From Actinomycetes bacterium (GTDB lineage Bacteria > Actinomycetota > Acidimicrobiia > Acidimicrobiales > RAAP-2): 64,000 nucleotides of DNA. How positions within the stretch are numbered: the stretch's first letter is position 1; every line of letters starts with the position of its first letter. A model generated the notes under the pieces. It worked only from the letters and a program-made list of their open reading frames with translations. It searched no databases and was not told the origin of the DNA. The stretch is from contig JAJZBK010000003.1 in NCBI GenBank assembly GCA_021798955.1, forward strand, positions 1 through 64,000, in the 5' to 3' direction. Shown here piece by piece: positions 35,274 through 49,857 of this stretch. Both the position numbers and the translations under genes were made by a program.

Positions 35274-37628
35274 TCAGCCCGGAGGCCTCGAGTGCAACGG
35301 CTCCCGACCGGTGGGCTGCCGGGGTCGGAGTCGGGGGGCGGGCGGGGGGACCGTCAGGGTCAGCACCTCGCCTTGGGAGACAACGGCAGGCGCCCCATGG
35401 TGAGTGATGTCGAGGGGCTCGCCTCGCAGCAGCACGTACGACGCCTCCTCGCTTCGCACCTCGACGACGAGCACACGGTCGCGGAAGACGATCCGGAAGG
35501 AGATCCGGACGAGGGCACCGGGCAGTTGGGGAGCGAAGTGCAGGGAACCGTCGTGGTCACGCAGGCCTCCGAAGCCGGCGACGACGGCCGTCCACGTCCC
35601 GGCCAGCGAAGCGATGTGGAGGCCGTCACGCGTGTTGTGCTGGAGGTCCTCGAGGTCCATGAGCGCCGACTCACGCAGGTAGTCGTAGGCGAGGTCGGGA
35701 TGACCTGTCTCGGCCGCTACGACCGCCTGGGTGCTGGCGGACAAGGACGAGTCACGCACGGTCAGCTGCTCGTAGTAGGCGAAGTCGCGAGCCTTCTCCT
35801 CGTCGGTGAAGGCGTCCCCGCGCAGGTGGAGGGCAAGCACCAGGTCCGCCTGCTTCACCACCTGCTTGCGGTAGAGGTCGAAGTACGGGACGTGGAGGAA
35901 GAGCGGGTACCCCTCGGCCGGCGTCGAGTCGAAGTCCCAGACCTGGTGCTCGGTGAACGCCTCGTGTTGGGGATGCACCCCGAGCGCTTCGTCGTAGGGA
36001 ACGGTCATCGCCGAGGCGGCTCGGCGCCAGGCGGCGACCTCCTCTGCTCCGACGCCGAGGGCGTCGGCCTGCTCGGGGAACCTCTCGGACTGGTCGGCGG
36101 CGGCAGCGAGGTTCCGTTGCGCCATGAGGTTGGTGAAGACGTTGTTGTCGGCGACGGCGCTGTACTCGTCGGGCCCTGTCACCCCGTCGATGCGGAAACG
36201 TCCCGTCCCGTCGTGGTAGCCGAGCGAGCACCACAGCCTCGCCGTCTCGACCAGGAGCTCGAGGCCACTGGTGGCGGCAAAAGCCTCGTCGCCCGTCGCA
36301 GCCTGGTAGCGGACCACTGCGTCGGCGATGTCGGCGTTGACGTGGAAGGCCGCCGTCCCGGCCGGCCAGTACCCCGAGCACTCCTGGCCTCCGATGGTGC
36401 GCCAGGGGAACGCCGCCCCGGTGAACCCGAGGACGCCCGCTCGTTGGCGGGCGAGCTCGAGCGTTCGCCACCGCCACCGCAGGGCGTCGGCGGCCGCCGT
36501 GGGCGCGGTGCAGGTGAGCACCGGAAGGACGAACGTCTCGGTGTCCCAGAACGTATGACCGTCGTAGCCGGGTCCAGTCAGCCCCTTGGCGGCGATGGCC
36601 CGCTCCTCCCCGCGGGCACCCGCCTGGAGCGTATGAAAGAGGGCGAAGCGCACCGCCTGTTGGAGCTCGTCGTCACCGTCGATCTCGACGTCGGCCCGCT
36701 CCCAGAAGCCGTCGAGGTAGGAACGTTGGGCGGCGACGAGGCCATCCCAGCCGGCGTGCAGCGCCTCGGCCAGGGCCGCGTTGACCTGGTCGCGCACCGC
36801 CGGCAGCGACCGCTCGTCGGACCAGCCGTACGCCAGCAGCTTGACGACCCGCAGCGGCCGTCCCGGTGCGGCAACGGCGCTGAAGGTCACTCGGGCCAGG
36901 TCCTCGAAGGCCTCGACGTCGGCGTGGGTCCCCGGCGGACCGTCGACCACGTGGTCCATGGCCGCCCCGATGCGCATCCTGCTCGTCGCCGTCGACTGGA
37001 CGAGCACGGCTCTCGTGCCGTGGCCCACGTGGAGCTCGTGGCGCAGTGGGGCGGAGGGGACGCTCTCGGCTCGTGGATCGCCGGCACGGGCGGGCAGCGG
37101 CTCGTTGGCCACCAGCTCCGACTGGACGACCACGGGCAGTTCGACGTCGAGCGGCTCGACGTCGTAGGCGATGGCGGCGACGGCACGCTGGACGAACGAC
37201 ACGAGCCGGGTGGAGGTGACCCGTACGCCCTGGCCGGTCGGAGAGCGCCACGTGGCGCGTCTGCGCAGCACGCCAGCACGCAGGTCGAGCACTCGGTGGT
37301 GGTCTACCAGCACGCCGGTGCGGACGTCGAAGAGCTCGTCGTCGACCAGCAAACGGATGAGCTTGCCGTTGGTGACGTTCACGACGCTCTGGCTCGACTC
37401 GGGGTTCCCGTAGCCGGCCTCGGCAGTTGGAAGCGGGCGCAGCTCGTAGCAACCGGCCAGGTAGGTCCCAGGCAGGCCAGACGGCTCCCCTTCGTCGAGG
37501 TTCCCGCGGAGCCCGATATGGCCGTTGGACAGGGCGAAGAGCGACTCGGTCTGGGCCAGTGCCGCGAGGTCGAGCGAGACCTCCGAGAGCGCCCACGGCT
37601 CGGTCGGGAAGGCGGGGTGCCGGATCAC
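35274..37628 (-). CDS. Glycoside hydrolase family 65 disaccharide phosphorylase
   Basis: A 784-residue family GH65 enzyme, the group of maltose, trehalose and kojibiose phosphorylases, which split an alpha-linked glucobiose with phosphate to glucose and beta-glucose 1-phosphate. The N-terminal beta-sandwich begins with [20 protein letters not shown]. The (alpha/alpha)6 barrel has the catalytic acid in [16 protein letters not shown] and the substrate motif [24 protein letters not shown] in the phosphate-binding region and a short C-terminal beta domain follow. The beta-phosphoglucomutase gene upstream (same operon, overlap ATGA) identifies the phosphorylase type and the fate of the product. 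Exact disaccharide unknown. The last 25 residues are arginine/proline-rich. Confidence 0.92.
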
Positions 37629-38479
37629 GGTGCGCTCAGCAGCTCGGCGAGGTCGTCGACAACGATGTCGGCTCCGTTCGCCCGCAGCTCGTCCGCCTGC
37701 CTGGCTCGGTCCACCCCGACCACCCAGCCGAAGTGGCCGGCTCGACCGGCTGCCACGCCAGCCAGGGCGTCCTCGAACACCGCGGCGTCGGCAGGGGGAA
37801 CGCCGACCAGACGGGCGGCGGCGAGGTAGGTGTCGGGCTCGGGCTTGCCCGCCAGATGCTCACGGGCAGCGACCACCCCGTCGACCACCACGTCGAAGAG
37901 CCCGTCGATCCGGGCAGCGGCGAGCACCGCCCGACAGTTGGCGCTCGCCGACACCACGGCGCAACGCAGGCCGGCGCGACGTGCTGCCTGCACGAAGCGG
38001 ACCGAGCCCTCGTAGGCTTCGACCCCGCCCGTAGCGAGCAAGCTTACGAGGGCGGCGTTCTTCCGGTTCCCGATCCCGCAGACGGTCTCCGCGTCCGGAG
38101 GATCCCCGGGATCGCCGTCGGGCAGGGTGATCCCCCTCGAGGCGAGAAAGGTACGCACGCCGTCGTAGCGCGGTCGACCGTCGACGTACTCGTCGTAGTC
38201 GGCATGCTCGTCGAAGGGGACGAACGGCTCACCTCGTTCCTCGGCGCGGCGGCGCAGGTAGTCGTCGAAGGTCGTCTTCCAGGCTGCCGCGTGCACGCTG
38301 GCCGTCTGGGTGAGGACGCCGTCGAGGTCGAAGAGGCACGCACGTGTCGAGGCCGGTAGGCCCAGCTCGCCGACGACGACCGATCGGGGGCGACGAGGCT
38401 TCTGGGCTCGCGCCGGCACCTTCGCACCACCGGCGTTCGCCGCCCGGTCAGGCCGTAGCGTCGCCCGCGATCCAGTCAT
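37625..38479 (-). CDS. pgmB: Beta-phosphoglucomutase (HAD superfamily)
   Basis: A 284-residue HAD phosphatase/mutase that would convert beta-glucose 1-phosphate from the GH65 phosphorylase to glucose 6-phosphate. It has the nucleophile DFDGV-type motif [21 protein letters not shown], the long cap domain typical of GH65-associated mutases, [23 protein letters not shown] and [15 protein letters not shown]. About 50 polar residues precede the HAD core. ATG 38479 is supported by a CACCCT box six bases upstream. First gene of the operon with the GH65 gene. Confidence 0.92.
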
Positions 38480-38485
38480 GGTCAG

Positions 38486-38491
38486 AGGGTG
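38486..38491 (-). promoter_or_regulatory. Leaderless -10 box of pgmB-GH65 operon
   Basis: CACCCT on the minus strand, six bases before the ATG at 38479. Confidence 0.45.
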
Positions 38492-38639
38492 CGACACACC
38501 AGGCCCTGTCGGCCAGGGTCCAAGGTCACCTCGGTCCCGTCTCGGCCGAGCTCGCCGAGGGCAACCCGCCCGACGCGGCACAGGCCCGCCCGACACCCCA
38601 CGGCCGAGACCTGCCGTTCGGCCCTGGGCATCGTGTCCC

Positions 38640-38645
38640 TATGCT
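38640..38645 (+). promoter_or_regulatory. -10 box of phosphoketolase-ackA operon
   Basis: TATGCT, about 90 bases before the GTG at 38737. This divergent promoter faces away from the pgmB promoter across a 257-base gap. Confidence 0.5.
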
Positions 38646-38736
38646 CCTAAGGTGGCGAGGCGATGGCACGAGCAACGGGAACCAGGCACCGCTCCGGCTG
38701 GGCTGGACGCTCTGTCGTCGGAGGAACGGTGAGCCG

Positions 38737-41091
38737 GTGAGCACGGGCCCACTCGACACGAACGGGCTCGAGCTGCTCGACGCCTACTGGCGAGCAGCGA
38801 ACTACCTCTCGGTCGGGCAGATCTACCTGCTCGACAACCCGTTGCTCGACGAGGAGCTCCGCCCCGAGCACATCAAGCCGCGCCGGCTCGGCCACTGGGG
38901 CACGACACCCGGGCTCAACTTCGTCTACGCCCACCTCAACCGGGTGATCCGAAACTGGGACCTCGACGCCTTCATGGTCTTCGGACCGGGACACGGTGGA
39001 CCCGCTGCCGTGGCCAACGCCTACCTCGAGGGGACCTACTCCGAGGTCTACCCGCACGTCAGCCGCGACAAGGACGGCATGCGAGCCCTGTTCCGACAGT
39101 TCTCGTTCCCCGGCGGCGTGCCGTCGCACGTGGCTCCCGAGACACCCGGCTCCATCCACGAAGGCGGCGAGCTCGGCTACTCGCTGTCCCACGCCTACGG
39201 GGCCGCCTTCGACAACCCGGACCTCTTCGTCTGCTGCGTCGTCGGAGATGGCGAAGCAGAGACCGGACCGCTCGCCACCTCGTGGCACTCCAACAAGTTC
39301 CTCAACCCTGTGACCGACGGCGCCGTCCTGCCCGTCCTCCACCTGAACGGGTACAAGATCGCCAATCCCACCGTGCTCGCCCGCATCCCCGACGACGAGC
39401 TCACCTCCCTCCTCGAGGGCTACGGGCACACCGTGCACTGGGTCTCCGGCGACGACCCGGCGACCATGCACCAGCTGATGGCCGAGACCCTCGACCAGGT
39501 CGTCGCCGAAGTCCTCGAGATCCAGCGCCGAGCCCGTCAGGGCGGCGACACCGGACGGCCGCGGTGGCCGATGATCGTGCTCGAGACCCCGAAGGGCTGG
39601 ACGGGGCCGAAGACCCTCGACGGCGTCCCGGTGGAGGGGACGTGGCGCGCCCACCAGGTACCCATTCCCGACGTCGCGACCAATCCGGAGCACCTCGCCG
39701 CGTTGCGATCGTGGCTCGAGAGCTACCGCGCCGACGAGCTCTTCGACGAGCACGGCTCGCTCCGCGCCGAACTGGCCGAGCTCCCTCCCCGGGGCCCGCG
39801 GCGCATGAGCGCAAACCCGCACACGAACGGTGGGCTCCTGCTCTCCGACCTAGAGCTCCCGGAGTTCCGCGACTACGCGGTCGAGGTCGGCGCTCCGGGT
39901 GCAGCGACCAGCGAGGCGACCCGCGTCCTCGGCACCTTCCTGCGCGACGTGGTGCGGGCCAACCCGCACACCTTTCGCGTCTTCGGACCGGACGAGACGG
40001 CGTCCAACCGCCTCGACGCCCTCTTCGAGGCGACCGACCGCCAGTGGGAGGCCGAGCGCCTCGACACAGACGACCACCTCGCTCCCGAGGGCCGGGTGAT
40101 GGAGATGCTCTCGGAGCACCAGTGCCAGGGGTGGCTGGAGGGGTACCTGCTCACCGGGCGCCACGGCCTCTTCAACTCGTACGAGGCGTTCGTGCACATC
40201 GTCGACTCGATGTTCAACCAGCATGCCAAGTGGCTGAAGGTGACCCGGCAGCTCCCGTGGCGCAGGCCGTTGGCCTCGCTCAACTACCTGCTCTCCTCGC
40301 ACGTCTGGCGCCAAGACCACAACGGCTTCAGCCACCAGGACCCGGGGTTTCTCGACCACGTCGTCAACAAGAAGGCCGAGATCGTCCGGGTCTACCTACC
40401 GCCCGACGCCAACTGCCTCTTGTCGGTGATGGACCACTGCCTGCGGAGCCGCCACTACGTGAACGTCGTGGTGGCGGGCAAGCAGCCCTCGCTCGACTAC
40501 CTGGCCATAGACGACGCCGTCCTCCACTGCGCCCGGGGTGTGGGCATCTGGGAGTTCGCCTCCAACGACGAGGGCGACCCCGACGTGGTGATGGCCTGCT
40601 GCGGAGACGTGCCCACCCTCGAGACGTTGGCCGCCGTCGACCTCCTCCGCCGAGGGCTGCCCGACCTCAAGGTCCGCGTGGTGAACGTCGTCGACCTGAT
40701 GCGCCTCGAACCCGACACCGAGCATCCCCACGGCCTCCCCGACCGCGAGTTCGACACCCTGTTCACCGAGGACAAGCCCGTCGTCTTCGCCTTCCACGGC
40801 TATCCCTGGCTCGTCCACCGCCTCACCTACCGGCGGACCAATCACGCCAACATCCACGTCCGCGGCTACAAGGAGGAGGGCACGACCACCACGCCCTTCG
40901 ACATGGTGATGCTCAACGACCTCGACCGCTTCCACCTCGTCATGGACGTCGTGGACCGGGTGCCGGGCCTCGGCTCGCACGCCGCCGAGCTGCGCCAGCG
41001 GATGGTGGACGAACGGGCACGGTGCCGTGCGTACGCGCGCTCGGTCGGCGAGGACCCTCCCGACATCGCCGAGTGGACCTGGCCGGCGTGA
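38737..41091 (+). CDS. xfp: Phosphoketolase (xylulose 5-phosphate/fructose 6-phosphate)
   Basis: A 784-residue ThDP enzyme that cleaves xylulose 5-phosphate (or fructose 6-phosphate) with phosphate to acetyl phosphate and glyceraldehyde 3-phosphate (or erythrose 4-phosphate). Motifs include the N-terminal [44 protein letters not shown] and the ThDP motif [37 protein letters not shown] and [19 protein letters not shown] are phosphoketolase-specific. The GTG start is preceded by GGAGGA; length is normal. The stop overlaps the acetate kinase start, giving a complete acetyl-phosphate bypass. Confidence 0.96.
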
Positions 41092-42386
41092 GCCCACCGG
41101 GCCCGCCCCCGACCGGCGGCCCACGGGGCGAGGACGGTCCGGGGCATCCGACCGGGAACATCCTGACGGTCAACGCCGGCTCGTCCAGCCTGAAGCTGTC
41201 GGTCCTCGACGGTGCCGACCGGCTCCTCGCCGAGGCGTCGGTGCCGGCCAAACGGGGTTCGCCGGTGTCGCAGGTGCTCGACGACGAGCTCGGCCGCCTG
41301 CTCGACGCTGCCGGCGCTGCCGGCGCTGCCGGCGCTGCCGGCGCTGCCGACGCTGCCGGCGCTGCCGACGCTGCCGACGCTGCCGACGCTGCCGACGCTG
41401 GCGCCACCTACCGCCTGGCTGCCGTCGGGCACCGTATCGTCCACGGAGGCAGCGACCTGGTCGCTCCAGTCGTGGTCGACGAGGACGTCCGTCTCCAGCT
41501 CGAGGAGCTCTGCGACCTCGCCCCGCTGCACCAGCCGACCTCGCTCGCCGCCCTCGACGCCGTCGGCCGGCACCTCCCAGGGGTGCCGGCGGTGGCCTGC
41601 TTCGACACCGCCTTCCACGCCCACATTCCGGCGGTGGCGGCCACCTACGCCCTGCCCCGCGAGTGGCGGCGGCGCTGGCCCCTCCGTCGGTTCGGCTTCC
41701 ACGGCCTCTCCCACGCCTACGCCTCGCGGCGCGCCGCGGTGCTGCTCGACCAGCCGCTCGAGTCGCTCCGGCTGGTGACCTGTCACCTCGGCGCCGGCGC
41801 CTCGTTGGCTGCGGTAGCCGGCGGCCTCTCGGTCGACACCACCATGGGCTTCACCCCGCTCGACGGGCTGGTGATGGCCACGCGCTCGGGCAGTCTCGAC
41901 CCGGGGCTCGTCCTCTGGCTCGAGGAGCATGTCGGCATGCCGAGCGCCGAGCTGGCGTCGGCGCTCGAGCACCGATCGGGCCTCTTCGGGCTGGGCGGGA
42001 GCGCCGACCTGCGGGTCGTGCTCGCGGCCGAGGAGCGCGGCGACGCGGAGGCCGCTCTCGCCGTAGGCGTCTACCTCCACCGCTTGCGGGCCGGCGTCGC
42101 CTCCATGGTCGCGGCGCTGGGTGGGCTCGACGCGCTGGTCTTCACGGGCGGGGTGGGCGAGGCCTCGGCGGTGGTCCGGTCAAGGACGGCGAGCGGGCTC
42201 GGCTTCCTCGGGGTGACCGTCGACCCGGCACCCAACGAGGCAGGTCGCGGCGACCGCGACATCGGCGAACCAGGGGCACCGGTCCGGGTCCTCGTGGTCA
42301 CCGCTCGCGAGGACCTCGAGATCGCCCGTGGCGTGCGCAGCGCGTTCGGTGCCGCCCCGTCGACTGCGGGGACGGCAGGCGGCTGA
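41088..42386 (+). CDS. ackA: Acetate kinase with an Ala-rich repeat insertion
   Basis: A 432-residue acetate kinase that makes ATP and acetate from the acetyl phosphate supplied by the overlapping phosphoketolase gene (GTGA). It has [62 protein letters not shown] and [15 protein letters not shown] with [10 protein letters not shown] near the end. Between residues 73 and 103 there is an inserted run of ten AAG/AAD tripeptides encoded by a 9-bp repeat, in the N-terminal domain before the VGHRIVHGG strand. Most acetate kinases lack this. The last 20 residues are unconserved. Confidence 0.95.
41307..41396. repeat. 9-bp tandem repeat, 10 copies, inside ackA
   Basis: Ten units GCTGCCGGC or GCTGCCGAC, in the order AAG x4, AAD, AAG, AAD x4 when translated. 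The unit length keeps the reading frame. Confidence 0.96.
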
Positions 42387-42551: not shown

Positions 42552-42557
42552 TAGGTT
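42552..42557 (+). promoter_or_regulatory. Leaderless -10 box of the NTase-2H gene
   Basis: TAGGTT followed by exactly six bases and the ATG at 42564. It shows this gene has its own promoter, separate from ackA. Confidence 0.55.
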
Positions 42558-42563
42558 GCCTGC

Positions 42564-43925
42564 ATGTTGGGGCTCCGGGGGGCACGTTCGACGTGGTTGG
42601 AGGCGCCGTCGGAGCGCTCCGTCGAGCAGGTGCTCACGACCCTCCATCTCACCGGTCACGCTCGCAGTGCGCTGGTCTCGCTCGAGCAGCTGCTCGTCCG
42701 GTGCCGGCGTCTCCCCGTGGTCGGCCGCTTCGCCGACGCGCAGCTCGCCGCCATCCACCGCCGGCTCCGTCACGTCTTCGGACCAGACGAGCTCCTTCGC
42801 GTGTGTGCCGCGCTGGACGAGGAAGAGGTCCGCTACTTCGTCGGGGGCGGGTGGGGGCTCGACCTGCTGGCGGGCTGCCAGACCAGGCTCCATGGCGACC
42901 TCGACCTCTGCCTCGAGGACTTCGATCGGGACCTCCCAGCCGTCGAGCGGGTGCTGGCCCGCCTCGGCTACCACGTGCTCCCGGCGTTCCCGGGCGGCGT
43001 CTGGTTTCCCGACGTCGCCGTGCACGAGGACGGTCGGGGCCACCACATCGAGGTCCTCAGCGTCAACTGGCCCGTGCTCGACGCGGCCCGTCGCCTCTTC
43101 GCTACCGACGCCGACTCGACGGCCGAACCGTCGGCGACCGCCGCCAACGGCAGCTCGCCGTCGGTCCCAAGGTGCACCGCGCTGGGGTCGATCGCCGGCA
43201 CGACGCTGCGGACCTTTTCGATCCCCGCGCAGCGCCTCTTCCACCTCGGCTACGGGCACCTCGATGACAGGCCCGAGGACGTGCTGGCCGAAGACGTGCT
43301 GGCTGCGTTGTCGGCCCGGCCGGGAGCACCGGTCGTCGTCCCTGGCCGCCTCGACGAGCAAGCGGGCGATCCGCCACTCGTACCGGCGACGCTCCTGCTC
43401 GTCCCGATCTTCTCCCTCCCCTACGGTCTGTGGAGGTTGTGCAAGCAGTTCGGGAACGACTTCGACGCCATCCCGCCGCACGTGACGGTGGCCTACCCCT
43501 TCCTGCCGGCGCACCGGGTCGACGCCACCGTGCTCGACGAGCTGGCGAGGATCTTCGCCGGCCACGAGCCGTTCGACTTCGACCTCGCCAGCCTCGGTTG
43601 GTTCGGCGACGACGTCGTCTACCTCGAACCGCCGCGTCCCGAGAGGTTCACGACGATGACCGCTGCGCTCCAGCAGTCCTTCCCGGACTTCCGCCCCTAC
43701 GACGGCGCGTTCGACGCGGTCGTCCCCCACGTGACCCTGTCAGCCCACGAGACGGCGACCGGAGAGCAACGGCGGGTGCTCGCCACGTTGGGCCGCCGGT
43801 ACCTACCGGTCGCCGCACGAGCAACGCACGTCTGGCTGATGAGCAACAAGCGCCATCCCGACCACTGGTCGATCGAGCGCTTCTTTCCGCTCGGAGCGGC
43901 CGCCACTGGGCGGGCCACCACCTGA
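42564..43925 (+). CDS. Fusion of a nucleotidyltransferase and a 2H phosphoesterase
   Basis: A 453-residue two-domain protein. Residues about 75-240 resemble aminoglycoside/lincosamide nucleotidyltransferases: GGGWGLDLLAG (94-104), RLHGDLDLCLE (108-118) with the metal-binding DxD, a further carboxylate in HIEVLSV (161-167) and GSIAG...PAQRLFHLGYGHL. Residues about 275-445 resemble the 2H (2'-5' RNA ligase/cyclic phosphodiesterase) superfamily: the two His motifs are HVTVAYPF at 306 and HVTLSA at 389. The first 70 residues are unassigned. A nucleotide-adding domain joined to a phosphodiester-cleaving domain suggests one protein that makes and removes, or makes and processes, a nucleotide modification on RNA or a small molecule. 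Function is inferred; no neighbour explains it. Confidence 0.8.
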   Translation: MLGLRGARSTWLEAPSERSVEQVLTTLHLTGHARSALVSLEQLLVRCRRLPVVGRFADAQLAAIHRRLRHVFGPDELLRVCAALDEEEVRYFVGGGWGLDLLAGCQTRLHGDLDLCLEDFDRDLPAVERVLARLGYHVLPAFPGGVWFPDVAVHEDGRGHHIEVLSVNWPVLDAARRLFATDADSTAEPSATAANGSSPSVPRCTALGSIAGTTLRTFSIPAQRLFHLGYGHLDDRPEDVLAEDVLAALSARPGAPVVVPGRLDEQAGDPPLVPATLLLVPIFSLPYGLWRLCKQFGNDFDAIPPHVTVAYPFLPAHRVDATVLDELARIFAGHEPFDFDLASLGWFGDDVVYLEPPRPERFTTMTAALQQSFPDFRPYDGAFDAVVPHVTLSAHETATGEQRRVLATLGRRYLPVAARATHVWLMSNKRHPDHWSIERFFPLGAAATGRATT

Positions 43926-44013: not shown

Positions 44014-44778
44014 TCACCCCGATCGTGCCAGCGAGCGCACCCGACCGGACATCGCATGGAGCAGGTTCGTCCGCTCGGGGAACGCCAGGGCTGGCGTGGA
44101 CCTGAGGTCGTCGACGGCCACGAAGCGGGCCCCGCGCCCGACGAGCACCTCGCAGAACGCCTCGAGCGCCAGCGGCGTGACCTGTGGCCACGAGTGCAGG
44201 AGCACCACCGCATCGCGCCCCTCGTCACCGCTGACGCAGGTGTCGATGCCTTCGAGCGCCGCGGCTGCGACCGTCTCGGCCTGACCTCCCTCGTAGTCCT
44301 TCGGGTCGACGTCCCAACCGATGTGCCGGTAGCCCAGTCTGCGTAGCTGTCGCCGGAGGCCCAGGTCGTCGCTCCCCGCGCCGTAGGGCAGCCGGAAGTA
44401 CGGGAAGGGGTCGACCCCGGTGACGTTGGCGATCCGCTCGCGTGCCCGGCTGAGGTCGGCAGCCACGCCCTCGCTGGAGAGCTGACGGAAGTCGACGTGT
44501 GAGTAGGAGTGGCTGGCGACGGCGTGGCCGGCGTCGGCGACCGCCCGGGCGATGTCCGGGTTGGCGTCGACCCACCGCCCCTGCAGGAAGAACGTCGCTC
44601 GGACGCCGACGCGGCCGAGCACGTCGAGGATCGTCGTCACCGAGCTCGGCGCGTTGTGCCAGGGGAGGTCGGGGTCCTCGACGTCGAAGGTGACCGCCAC
44701 CCTCGCACTCCGGGTACGCCCCGTCTGTCCGGAAGGGCCCGTCCGACCCGAAGGATCGGTCTGTTCGGCAAGCTTCAT
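44014..44778 (-). CDS. Polysaccharide deacetylase (NodB family)
   Basis: A 254-residue carbohydrate esterase family 4 protein. The NodB domain shows the catalytic aspartates in VAVTFDVEDPD, the metal histidines in AVASHSYSHVDF, the substrate arginine/tyrosine in FRLPYGAGSDD, the WDVDPKDYEGG strand and VVLLHSW near the end. No signal peptide is evident: the start is MKLAEQ followed by a short arginine-, glycine- and serine-rich segment with a repeated PSGRTG/PSGQTG unit. It may act on a glycan precursor in the cytoplasm or at the membrane, or the start may be misplaced. It is isolated, with 400 bases of gene-poor sequence upstream. Confidence 0.9.
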   Translation of the reverse strand: MKLAEQTDPSGRTGPSGQTGRTRSARVAVTFDVEDPDLPWHNAPSSVTTILDVLGRVGVRATFFLQGRWVDANPDIARAVADAGHAVASHSYSHVDFRQLSSEGVAADLSRARERIANVTGVDPFPYFRLPYGAGSDDLGLRRQLRRLGYRHIGWDVDPKDYEGGQAETVAAAALEGIDTCVSGDEGRDAVVLLHSWPQVTPLALEAFCEVLVGRGARFVAVDDLRSTPALAFPERTNLLHAMSGRVRSLARSG

Positions 44779-48378: not shown

Positions 48379-49857
48379 GTGGACGGTCACGAGGGAGCGC
48401 GCCGTGGGCACGACCCCGGCGACGAGGGGAACGACGGGCCCGTCGGTGACGGTGGCTCGCGAGGAGACGACTCGATCGACGACCTCGACGACCACCTCGA
48501 CCTCGACGACCACCTCGACCTCGACGACCACCTCGACCTCGACGACCACCTCGACCTCGACGACCACCTCGACCTCGACGACCACCTCGACCTCGGTGGC
48601 TTTCGGGGCTGGGTCGCCCCCGAGGACCGCTTGTGGCGTCACCCCTCTGAGCTCGGTGCGGCCTCCTGGGCAGGTCGTAGCGGGAACCTCGGAAGAGGTC
48701 GGCTCCGGCCGGCCGGCCGTGGCGGCGTCCAGCGCCGGCCCGCCCCCCCGTGGATCGTCGGGACGGTTGCCGTCGCTGCCGGCGTGCTGCTCGCCACCGG
48801 CTTGGTGCTCGCCTCCTCGGGCGCCGACCCGGGCCTCGTCGCTCGGCGGGTGGTCGCCACCGCGTCGACCTCGACACCTTCGCCGGTGACGGCCACCACC
48901 ATGGCGGGCACCCCCGGTCCAGGCGCCGCGGTGGTGGGCAGGGTCGAGCGCCAGGTGCGTCCGTCCCTCGTCGCACTGGTGGTCCATCGGGCCACCGGGG
49001 CGGTCCTTGGAACGGGGGTGGTGGTCGAGCCGGGCGGGATCATCGCCACCACCGCCAGCCTGCTCCGCGGGGCGGTGTCCATCGTCGCCGAGGAAGCGGG
49101 AGGGACACGCGAGCCTGCCCGGCTGGTAGGAGTCGACCGGACATCGGGGGTCGCCGTGGTACAGGTTGCCGACCAGCTGCCAGCCGTCACCGTCGACTCC
49201 ACCGATCCCAGCCCCGGTTCGGTGGACCTGGCGATCGCCTTTCCTGCCTCGAGGGGAACCATGCCTCAGCCTGCTGTGTACGCGGGAGCCGTCGTCGCAT
49301 CTGGCGTTCCCGCCGGCGTCGATGGCCCGACCACCGAGTTCGCGTCGACCGTCGTCCGGGCACCGCTCTCCGGCTCCGAACAAGGCGGCGCGTTGGTAGA
49401 CGCCAGCGGTCGGCTCGTCGGCATCCTCGACGCCGTCAGCTCCACGCCGAACGGCTCCGTCGGCGTCTTCCTCCCCTCCACACTGGTCTCGGGCGTCGCC
49501 GAGCAGCTGGTCACCTCGGGAACCGTCGGGCGCGGTCGGCTGGGTGTCGACGGCAGCGACCTCGCGCCACCGGCCGGCAGTCCGACCAGCGCACCGGTCG
49601 GCGTGCTCGTCGATGCAGTCGACCCGGGTGGTGCGGCCGCCCAGGCCGGGGTGCAGCAAGGCGACGTGATCGTCGCCGTCGACGGCAGCACCGTCCACTC
49701 GATGGCCGAGCTCCGGGCCTTGCTCTACCCCGATCCACCGGGCACGTCCCTCGAGGTCACGATCAAACGAGGCTCCTCCACGTTCGTGACCACGGCCGTG
49801 CTCGGAACCTCGACGGCGGCCGGTGCTCCGGCGCCGGTCTCCAGCCACGCGCCGTAG
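48379..49857 (+). CDS. Protease-dead HtrA-like membrane protein with PDZ domain
   Basis: A 492-residue single-helix membrane protein. The cytoplasmic N terminus has six LDDHLD repeats (36-71) and a WRHPSE motif (86-91), followed by a helix at 125-146, a trypsin-like domain (about 185-375) and a PDZ domain (about 390-475). By alignment to the HtrA pattern, the catalytic triad appears lost: the TNNHVV histidine site reads TTASLL (Ser227), the DLAVL aspartate site reads SGVAV (Gly257) and the GNSGGP serine site reads SEQGGA (Gln335). It may work as an extracellular binding or scaffold protein, perhaps with the PDZ-Lon protease or MreB. GTG 48379 is supported by a -10 box. Confidence 0.85.
   Translation: MDGHEGARRGHDPGDEGNDGPVGDGGSRGDDSIDDLDDHLDLDDHLDLDDHLDLDDHLDLDDHLDLDDHLDLGGFRGWVAPEDRLWRHPSELGAASWAGRSGNLGRGRLRPAGRGGVQRRPAPPWIVGTVAVAAGVLLATGLVLASSGADPGLVARRVVATASTSTPSPVTATTMAGTPGPGAAVVGRVERQVRPSLVALVVHRATGAVLGTGVVVEPGGIIATTASLLRGAVSIVAEEAGGTREPARLVGVDRTSGVAVVQVADQLPAVTVDSTDPSPGSVDLAIAFPASRGTMPQPAVYAGAVVASGVPAGVDGPTTEFASTVVRAPLSGSEQGGALVDASGRLVGILDAVSSTPNGSVGVFLPSTLVSGVAEQLVTSGTVGRGRLGVDGSDLAPPAGSPTSAPVGVLVDAVDPGGAAAQAGVQQGDVIVAVDGSTVHSMAELRALLYPDPPGTSLEVTIKRGSSTFVTTAVLGTSTAAGAPAPVSSHAP
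48484..48591. repeat. 18-bp tandem repeat, 6 copies, in the HtrA-like gene
   Basis: Six units of CTCGACGACCACCTCGAC with almost no divergence, encoding (LDDHLD)6. The unit is a multiple of three, so copy-number change keeps the frame. Confidence 0.97.

Follow-up and report, generated by a model that had tools for sequence, protein, structure and literature searches.

A nucleotidyltransferase-2H phosphoesterase fusion of Acidimicrobiales associated with surface-polysaccharide genes

The gene described here lies in a stretch of 64,000 nucleotides (the window) of contig JAJZBK010000003.1 from an Actinomycetes bacterium (Acidimicrobiales; RAAP-2; assembly GCA_021798955.1). The first-pass annotation of this DNA had placed two activities in one frame, and the gene is indeed a single ATG open reading frame on the forward strand, in which a nucleotidyltransferase (NTase) domain is followed by a 2H phosphoesterase domain (Table 1). 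Upstream are genes for phosphoketolase and acetate kinase. A convergent neighbor encodes a polysaccharide deacetylase, which is the only polysaccharide gene adjoining the fusion in the window.

The region 35274-42386 encodes a GH65 phosphorylase with a HAD hydrolase, followed by the phosphoketolase and acetate kinase, which overlap by 19 bp. Next to the fusion of genome G297 (L062), homologues of the HAD, phosphoketolase and acetate kinase genes are arranged in this order too. The acetate kinase gene contains an Ala/Asp-rich 9-bp tandem repeat (11 copies, 41298-41400), and a similar insertion, a Gly/Ala/Val repeat, is found inside the NTase domain at L121, a locus treated below. An 18-bp tandem repeat of 6.4 identical copies (48480-48595), which reads (DDHLDL)n, is located near the start of a gene for a predicted trypsin-like PDZ protease (48379-49857).

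Table 1. Positions of the fusion gene, its parts, its convergent neighbor and the related NTase-flippase fusions. Positions refer to the window unless a locus is named.
Feature	Position	Strand	Basis
TAGGTT, -10-like hexamer 6 nt before ATG (candidate leaderless promoter)	42552..42557	+	same spacing in homologues
NTase-2H fusion gene, 453 aa	42564..43925 (stop codon included)	+	ATG frame without interruption, full-length relatives, purifying selection
N-terminal helical, basic amphipathic extension, residues 1-75	42564..42788	+	helices in model
Lnu/ANT(2'')-type nucleotidyltransferase domain, residues 77-234	42792..43265	+	PF10706, LnuA fold match
GGWGLD ... TRLHGDLDL, nucleotide/metal binding motif, residues 95-115 (D112, D114)	42846..42908	+	kept across all fused and paired copies
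E163, third acid, candidate catalytic base	43050..43052	+	Asp or Glu in each fused or paired copy except G368
Linker, residues 236-274	43269..43385	+	variable, weakly constrained
2H phosphoesterase domain, residues 296-431	43449..43856	+	PF13563; YjcG, CPDase, LigT fold matches
First HxT motif, H306-V-T308	43479..43487	+	alignment of copies
Second HxT motif, H389-V-T391	43728..43736	+	alignment of copies
Polysaccharide deacetylase, convergent neighbor of the fusion	44014..44778	-	PF01522, E 3.8e-29
NTase-Wzx fusions	L072:10361-14236, L122:10394-14431, L121:2717-6934	all -	L072 also with Wzy/O-antigen ligase domain

Pfam profiles PF10706 and PF13563 each matched the protein above their curated cut-offs, one in each half. 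The genome from which the window is taken (2.5 Mb, 54 contigs, 92% complete) holds one match to each profile, both in the fusion gene. A relative of the same genus has the entire fusion protein at 66% identity, and three more relatives in the family share 43-48% identity with it. The NTase and 2H halves, with dN/dS ratios of 0.11-0.37, are both under purifying selection, and the linker is less constrained (0.28-1.1). An assembly error or a stop-less read-through of two genes was ruled out by this selection and by eight closely related fusions in which the frame is conserved. An AlphaFold2 model of the fusion had moderate confidence (mean pLDDT 62.5, pTM 0.51).

The gene had also been proposed to have its own leaderless promoter. 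In four homologous loci (L112-L115) a -10-like hexamer (TATGAT, TATAAT or TAACAT) is found 6 nt ahead of the chosen start codon, and TATGAT occurs at the matching place in L117. Since the homologue start codons were picked by eye, partly using the hexamer spacing, this agreement is supportive of the promoter and not independent proof. The N-terminal extension that follows the start has counterparts in the linked NTases, in which the segment ahead of the core is net positive and amphipathic; comparison with unlinked NTases was rough, since some of the sequence ahead of their cores may not be translated. Such a basic amphipathic segment fits membrane contact.

The NTase half belongs to the PF10706 Lnu/ANT(2'') family (E 8.6e-14; 52.3 bits, with the cut-off at 21) and is predicted to transfer a nucleoside monophosphate (NMP). 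A Foldseek search with the model returned LnuA and ANT(2'')-Ia for the first half, and alignment with VIA-align gave Z scores of 15.3 for LnuA and 9.2 for FKRP. The tRNA-extending NTase-fold toxin MenT1 was also a structural neighbor. A profile of the NTase group matched LnuA over most of the chain (E 4e-37) and ANT(2'')-Ia with an E-value of 1.4e-13. In spite of this relationship, the cut-offs of the NCBIfam models for named Lnu/ANT resistance enzymes were not reached (29.6 bits versus 340 at best). No LicD family was among the Pfam matches listed at E up to 10, the superfamily fold alone being common to both, and Pfam gave no match of the fusion protein to CD-NTase families. Another Foldseek match was the adenylyl-2''-tobramycin complex 5cfu, illustrating that Lnu/ANT-type enzymes place AMP on hydroxyls of sugar-containing drugs.

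The NTase motifs reported earlier are at residues 95-100 (GGWGLD) and 107-115 (TRLHGDLDL), and the GGWG-D and TRxHxDxD patterns were kept throughout the alignment of the collected fused and paired copies. The third acid, a position whose role in LinB and AadA is treated in the passages of PMC4631478 on catalytic residues, is Gln in G368. The same genome has an additional, truncated NTase copy (L065:8267-8761, + strand), located some 3 kb upstream of the fusion, from which the C-terminal part of the domain is missing.

The second half scores well above the cut-off for PF13563 (E 7.4e-21; 75.2 versus 27 bits). Foldseek matched this part of the model to the Arabidopsis Appr>p phosphodiesterase, YjcG and LigT. 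VIA-align Z scores for the moderate-confidence model were 11.9 with YjcG and 9.8 with LigT, and a 2H profile matched YjcG with E 1.1e-11. By score, motifs and fold this half is a 2H phosphoesterase, for which phosphodiester cleavage is predicted. Known 2H enzymes act on phosphodiesters of nucleotides and on cyclic phosphates that have a neighboring hydroxyl. Of the two HVT motifs seen in the original reading, both histidines are found in every fused or paired copy, the first threonine is Thr or Ser throughout, and the second is Thr in all copies except G418 (Cys) and G608 (Ala). With these replacements and the Gln in G368, some copies may not be fully active. In the window protein both folds were recovered in the model and all known catalytic residues are present in both domains.

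Fusions of this kind recur among Acidimicrobiales metagenome-assembled genomes (MAGs). The window protein alone as query gave no match in the first scans of genome contigs and viral contigs. A scan of the genome collection revealed seven closely related fusions in MAGs labeled Acidimicrobiales, Acidimicrobiaceae or, in the case of G297, 'Actinomycetes', most of them 'palsa' isolates. A divergent fusion of 401 amino acids is present in another family of the order (G608). Elsewhere the two proteins are encoded separately: as neighboring genes in three genomes of one genus (G302, G326, G333), as convergent genes with tails overlapping or nearly touching in G360, G329 and G640, and on one strand with a 4 bp overlap in G433. 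An order-wide search, in which the query was a profile of the family-f1 fusions alone, gave six further genomes matching both halves, the window's own genome not being counted, and in all six the halves were fused or within about 4 kb.

In a tree of NTases all linked sequences fell in one group of 21 rows with support 91/89. Linkage to a 2H gene was seen for at least 19 of the 21, which is a lower bound, like the other linkage counts, because few candidates were scored per genome and samples were drawn. Of the two members with no visible 2H gene, G600 is cut short by the end of its contig, and G351 counts as a real exception within the limits of its contig. All 11 rows outside the group were unlinked. 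The relation between group and linkage was evaluated with Fisher tests, also with close relatives collapsed. The 2H tree, which was used to ask whether the linked 2H domains have a single origin, had an unresolved backbone. In eight genomes outside the order that have both genes (G711, G837, G036, G038, G255, G1010, G1076, G1096), these are on different contigs or far apart, so as far as sampled the linkage is a feature of Acidimicrobiales.

Mobile and defense origins were also considered. There was no full-length match among plasmids or phages. Viral contigs had no related fusion, and none of 18 viral loci carried both genes, though viral NTases and viral 2H genes exist. The PADLOC-DB collection (CBASS and others) gave no matching family at E up to 10.

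Pfam analysis of the neighbors of linked genes identified glycosyltransferases, Wzx/MOP flippases, polysaccharide deacetylases, PIG-L deacetylases and an O-antigen ligase domain. Of 18 linked loci, 17 had polysaccharide genes nearby, versus none of 21 control NTases from outside the group and one of nine loci with a lone 2H gene; the profiles were seeded from the linked loci, which favors these, though those for glycosyltransferases and flippases are broad. The single linked locus lacking such genes, G433, is on a contig of 6 kb. A PIG-L gene adjoins four fusions (L063, L064, L113, L114) and is further off in L065. A deacetylase of the same family as that in the window also adjoins NTase/2H genes in G297, G360, G329 and G450. 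The locus of G302 additionally encodes an amino acid-[acyl-carrier-protein] ligase, an acyl carrier protein (ACP) and a protein like exosortase-A hydrolases. At L067 (5984-9373, + strand), within a polysaccharide locus, the NTase gene is preceded by genes for a phosphopantetheinyl transferase, an ACP, an amino acid-[acyl-carrier-protein] ligase and a double hydrolase that resembles both exosortase-A-associated hydrolases.

A physical connection to glycan export was found in three genomes of two families (G059, G476, G450), in which one reading frame joins the NTase domain to a Wzx-type flippase, with a 2H gene within about 3 kb. The junction is common to the three, being well conserved between G059 and G476 and recognizable in G450. 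In G059 an O-antigen ligase domain precedes the NTase-Wzx fusion. These observations make it well supported that the NTase-2H pair belongs to a surface-polysaccharide context. For the window gene itself the context consists of the deacetylase, and its own genome, 92% complete, gave no flippase above the Pfam cut-off; this is the weakest point of the glycan proposal for this gene.

The fusion protein probably acts in the synthesis of a surface glycan. Since the closest solved relatives, LnuA and ANT(2'')-Ia, modify sugar-containing antibiotics, we propose that the NTase would transfer NMP to a sugar. At the cytoplasmic face of the membrane, NMP from an NTP would be placed on a sugar hydroxyl of a lipid-linked glycan unit. 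The 2H domain would next take as its substrate the sugar-phosphate-nucleoside diester or a cyclic phosphate formed from this diester, and would either mature it, leaving a sugar phosphate or a cyclic phosphate, or remove it; the glycan unit may then be flipped and polymerized. In view of the polysaccharide loci and of the flippase fusion, which places the NTase at the membrane, nucleotidylylation followed by 2H processing is the most economical model. Domain content, intact motifs, linkage and context are direct observations; what the enzyme acts on, which step comes first and what is produced are our inference. We consider a two-step tailoring enzyme of surface-polysaccharide biosynthesis, taken as a whole, a plausible description that falls somewhat short of probable. 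The specific chemistry, NMP attached to a glycan sugar with the 2H domain processing the diester, is more tentative. Equally tentative is a wider Acidimicrobiales pathway of glycan decoration in which a Lnu-like enzyme would nucleotidylate a lipid-linked sugar and the 2H enzyme would leave a phosphate or cyclic-phosphate decoration, coupled to Wzx and in some genomes fused to it.

The same loci can be read differently. In a reversible switch, the NTase would nucleotidylylate a component of the polysaccharide machinery, either a sugar or a protein such as the flippase, and the 2H domain would remove the mark, so that export is controlled and the product is not tailored. The first-pass annotation had included the writing and erasing of a nucleotide mark among its suggestions, and this part may still hold, with a glycan as the likelier target in view of the polysaccharide loci and Wzx fusions. 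Those fusions in three genomes, and the opposing activities within one chain, would suit a switch, and there are NTases that modify proteins, as in HEPN-MNT. However, the closest relatives act on sugar-containing small molecules, and a protein-NMP bond has no neighboring hydroxyl of the kind that known 2H substrates have, which makes this explanation unlikely. Less likely still is a reaction like that of LicD or FKRP, with the NTase moving a phospho-alcohol from a CDP-alcohol to a sugar and the 2H domain trimming cyclic phosphate by-products. The fold is shared with FKRP, and pneumococcal LicD works ahead of a MOP flippase according to the passages of PMC13385700, but the sequence is Lnu-type across the whole domain, and no LicD family was among its listed Pfam matches.

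The remaining explanations take the enzyme away from glycans. If the NTase synthesized a nucleotide signal that the 2H domain broke down, this would agree with the predicted action of 2H enzymes on nucleotide signals (PMC5512222), and one polysaccharide locus has a weak GGDEF match below the cut-off; against this, the domain is Lnu-type and neither PADLOC nor the CD-NTase families in Pfam gave a match, and we regard signaling as very unlikely. RNA-end repair or ligation, with nucleotides added by the NTase and 2',3'-cyclic phosphate ends opened by the 2H domain, draws on known 2H activities and on the structural similarity to MenT1. It is highly improbable given that the linked loci are polysaccharide loci and that the sequence is nearest to Lnu/ANT enzymes. 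Both roles had been offered in the initial reading, before the gene context of relatives was considered; the fusion of two complete domains is borne out, whereas these roles become less likely because the NTase group travels with 2H genes in polysaccharide loci and is in some cases fused to Wzx. Least probable is an antibiotic-modifying enzyme with an accessory 2H domain. Sequence and fold do place it in the Lnu/ANT family, yet the scores far below the models of the named resistance enzymes and the recurrent polysaccharide context speak against it. Many genomic Lnu/ANT-like NTases and 2H phosphoesterases have no assigned natural substrate, and the linkage described here offers both a testable physiological role.

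Both domains are of known families. A combination of nucleotidyl-transferring and 2H-type phosphodiesterase domains in one chain does occur in the fungal tRNA ligase Trl1, a covalent ligase-type NTase that also has a kinase and acts in an RNA context; it is unrelated to the Pol-beta-type NTase of the fusion. The earlier statement that no described system matches held for the open-licence literature searched, judged largely by titles, abstracts and keyword passages, in which the NTase-2H fusion, operonic or convergent pairs, the NTase-flippase fusion, and the association of the combination with glycans were not found. A functional analogy is offered by the teichoic acid system of pneumococcus, where according to the passages of PMC13385700 LicD adds phosphocholine in the cytoplasm and the flippase TacF checks for it, so that a phosphate-bearing group is likewise placed on a lipid-linked glycan before export by a MOP flippase. 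In contrast to the proposed system, LicD is of another family and uses CDP-choline, works without a 2H enzyme, and is described in those passages without a flippase fusion. The 2H fold and the two HxT motifs are shared with the YjcG/PRK13679-type protein (2d4g), LigT (5ldi) and the Arabidopsis Appr>p cyclic phosphodiesterase (1jh6), whereas these solved proteins are single-domain and had no tie to an NTase in our results. With LnuA (4fo1, 4wh5) and ANT(2'')-Ia (4xje, 4wqk) the fusion has in common the fold, the GGWG...TRxHxDxD motif, the third acid and a C-terminal motif. Those are stand-alone resistance enzymes, whereas the fusion has a basic N-terminal extension, a 2H domain and polysaccharide neighbors. 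The ties of one NTase group both to 2H enzymes and to the export of glycans hint at an ancestry common to sugar-modifying resistance enzymes and glycan-tailoring enzymes.
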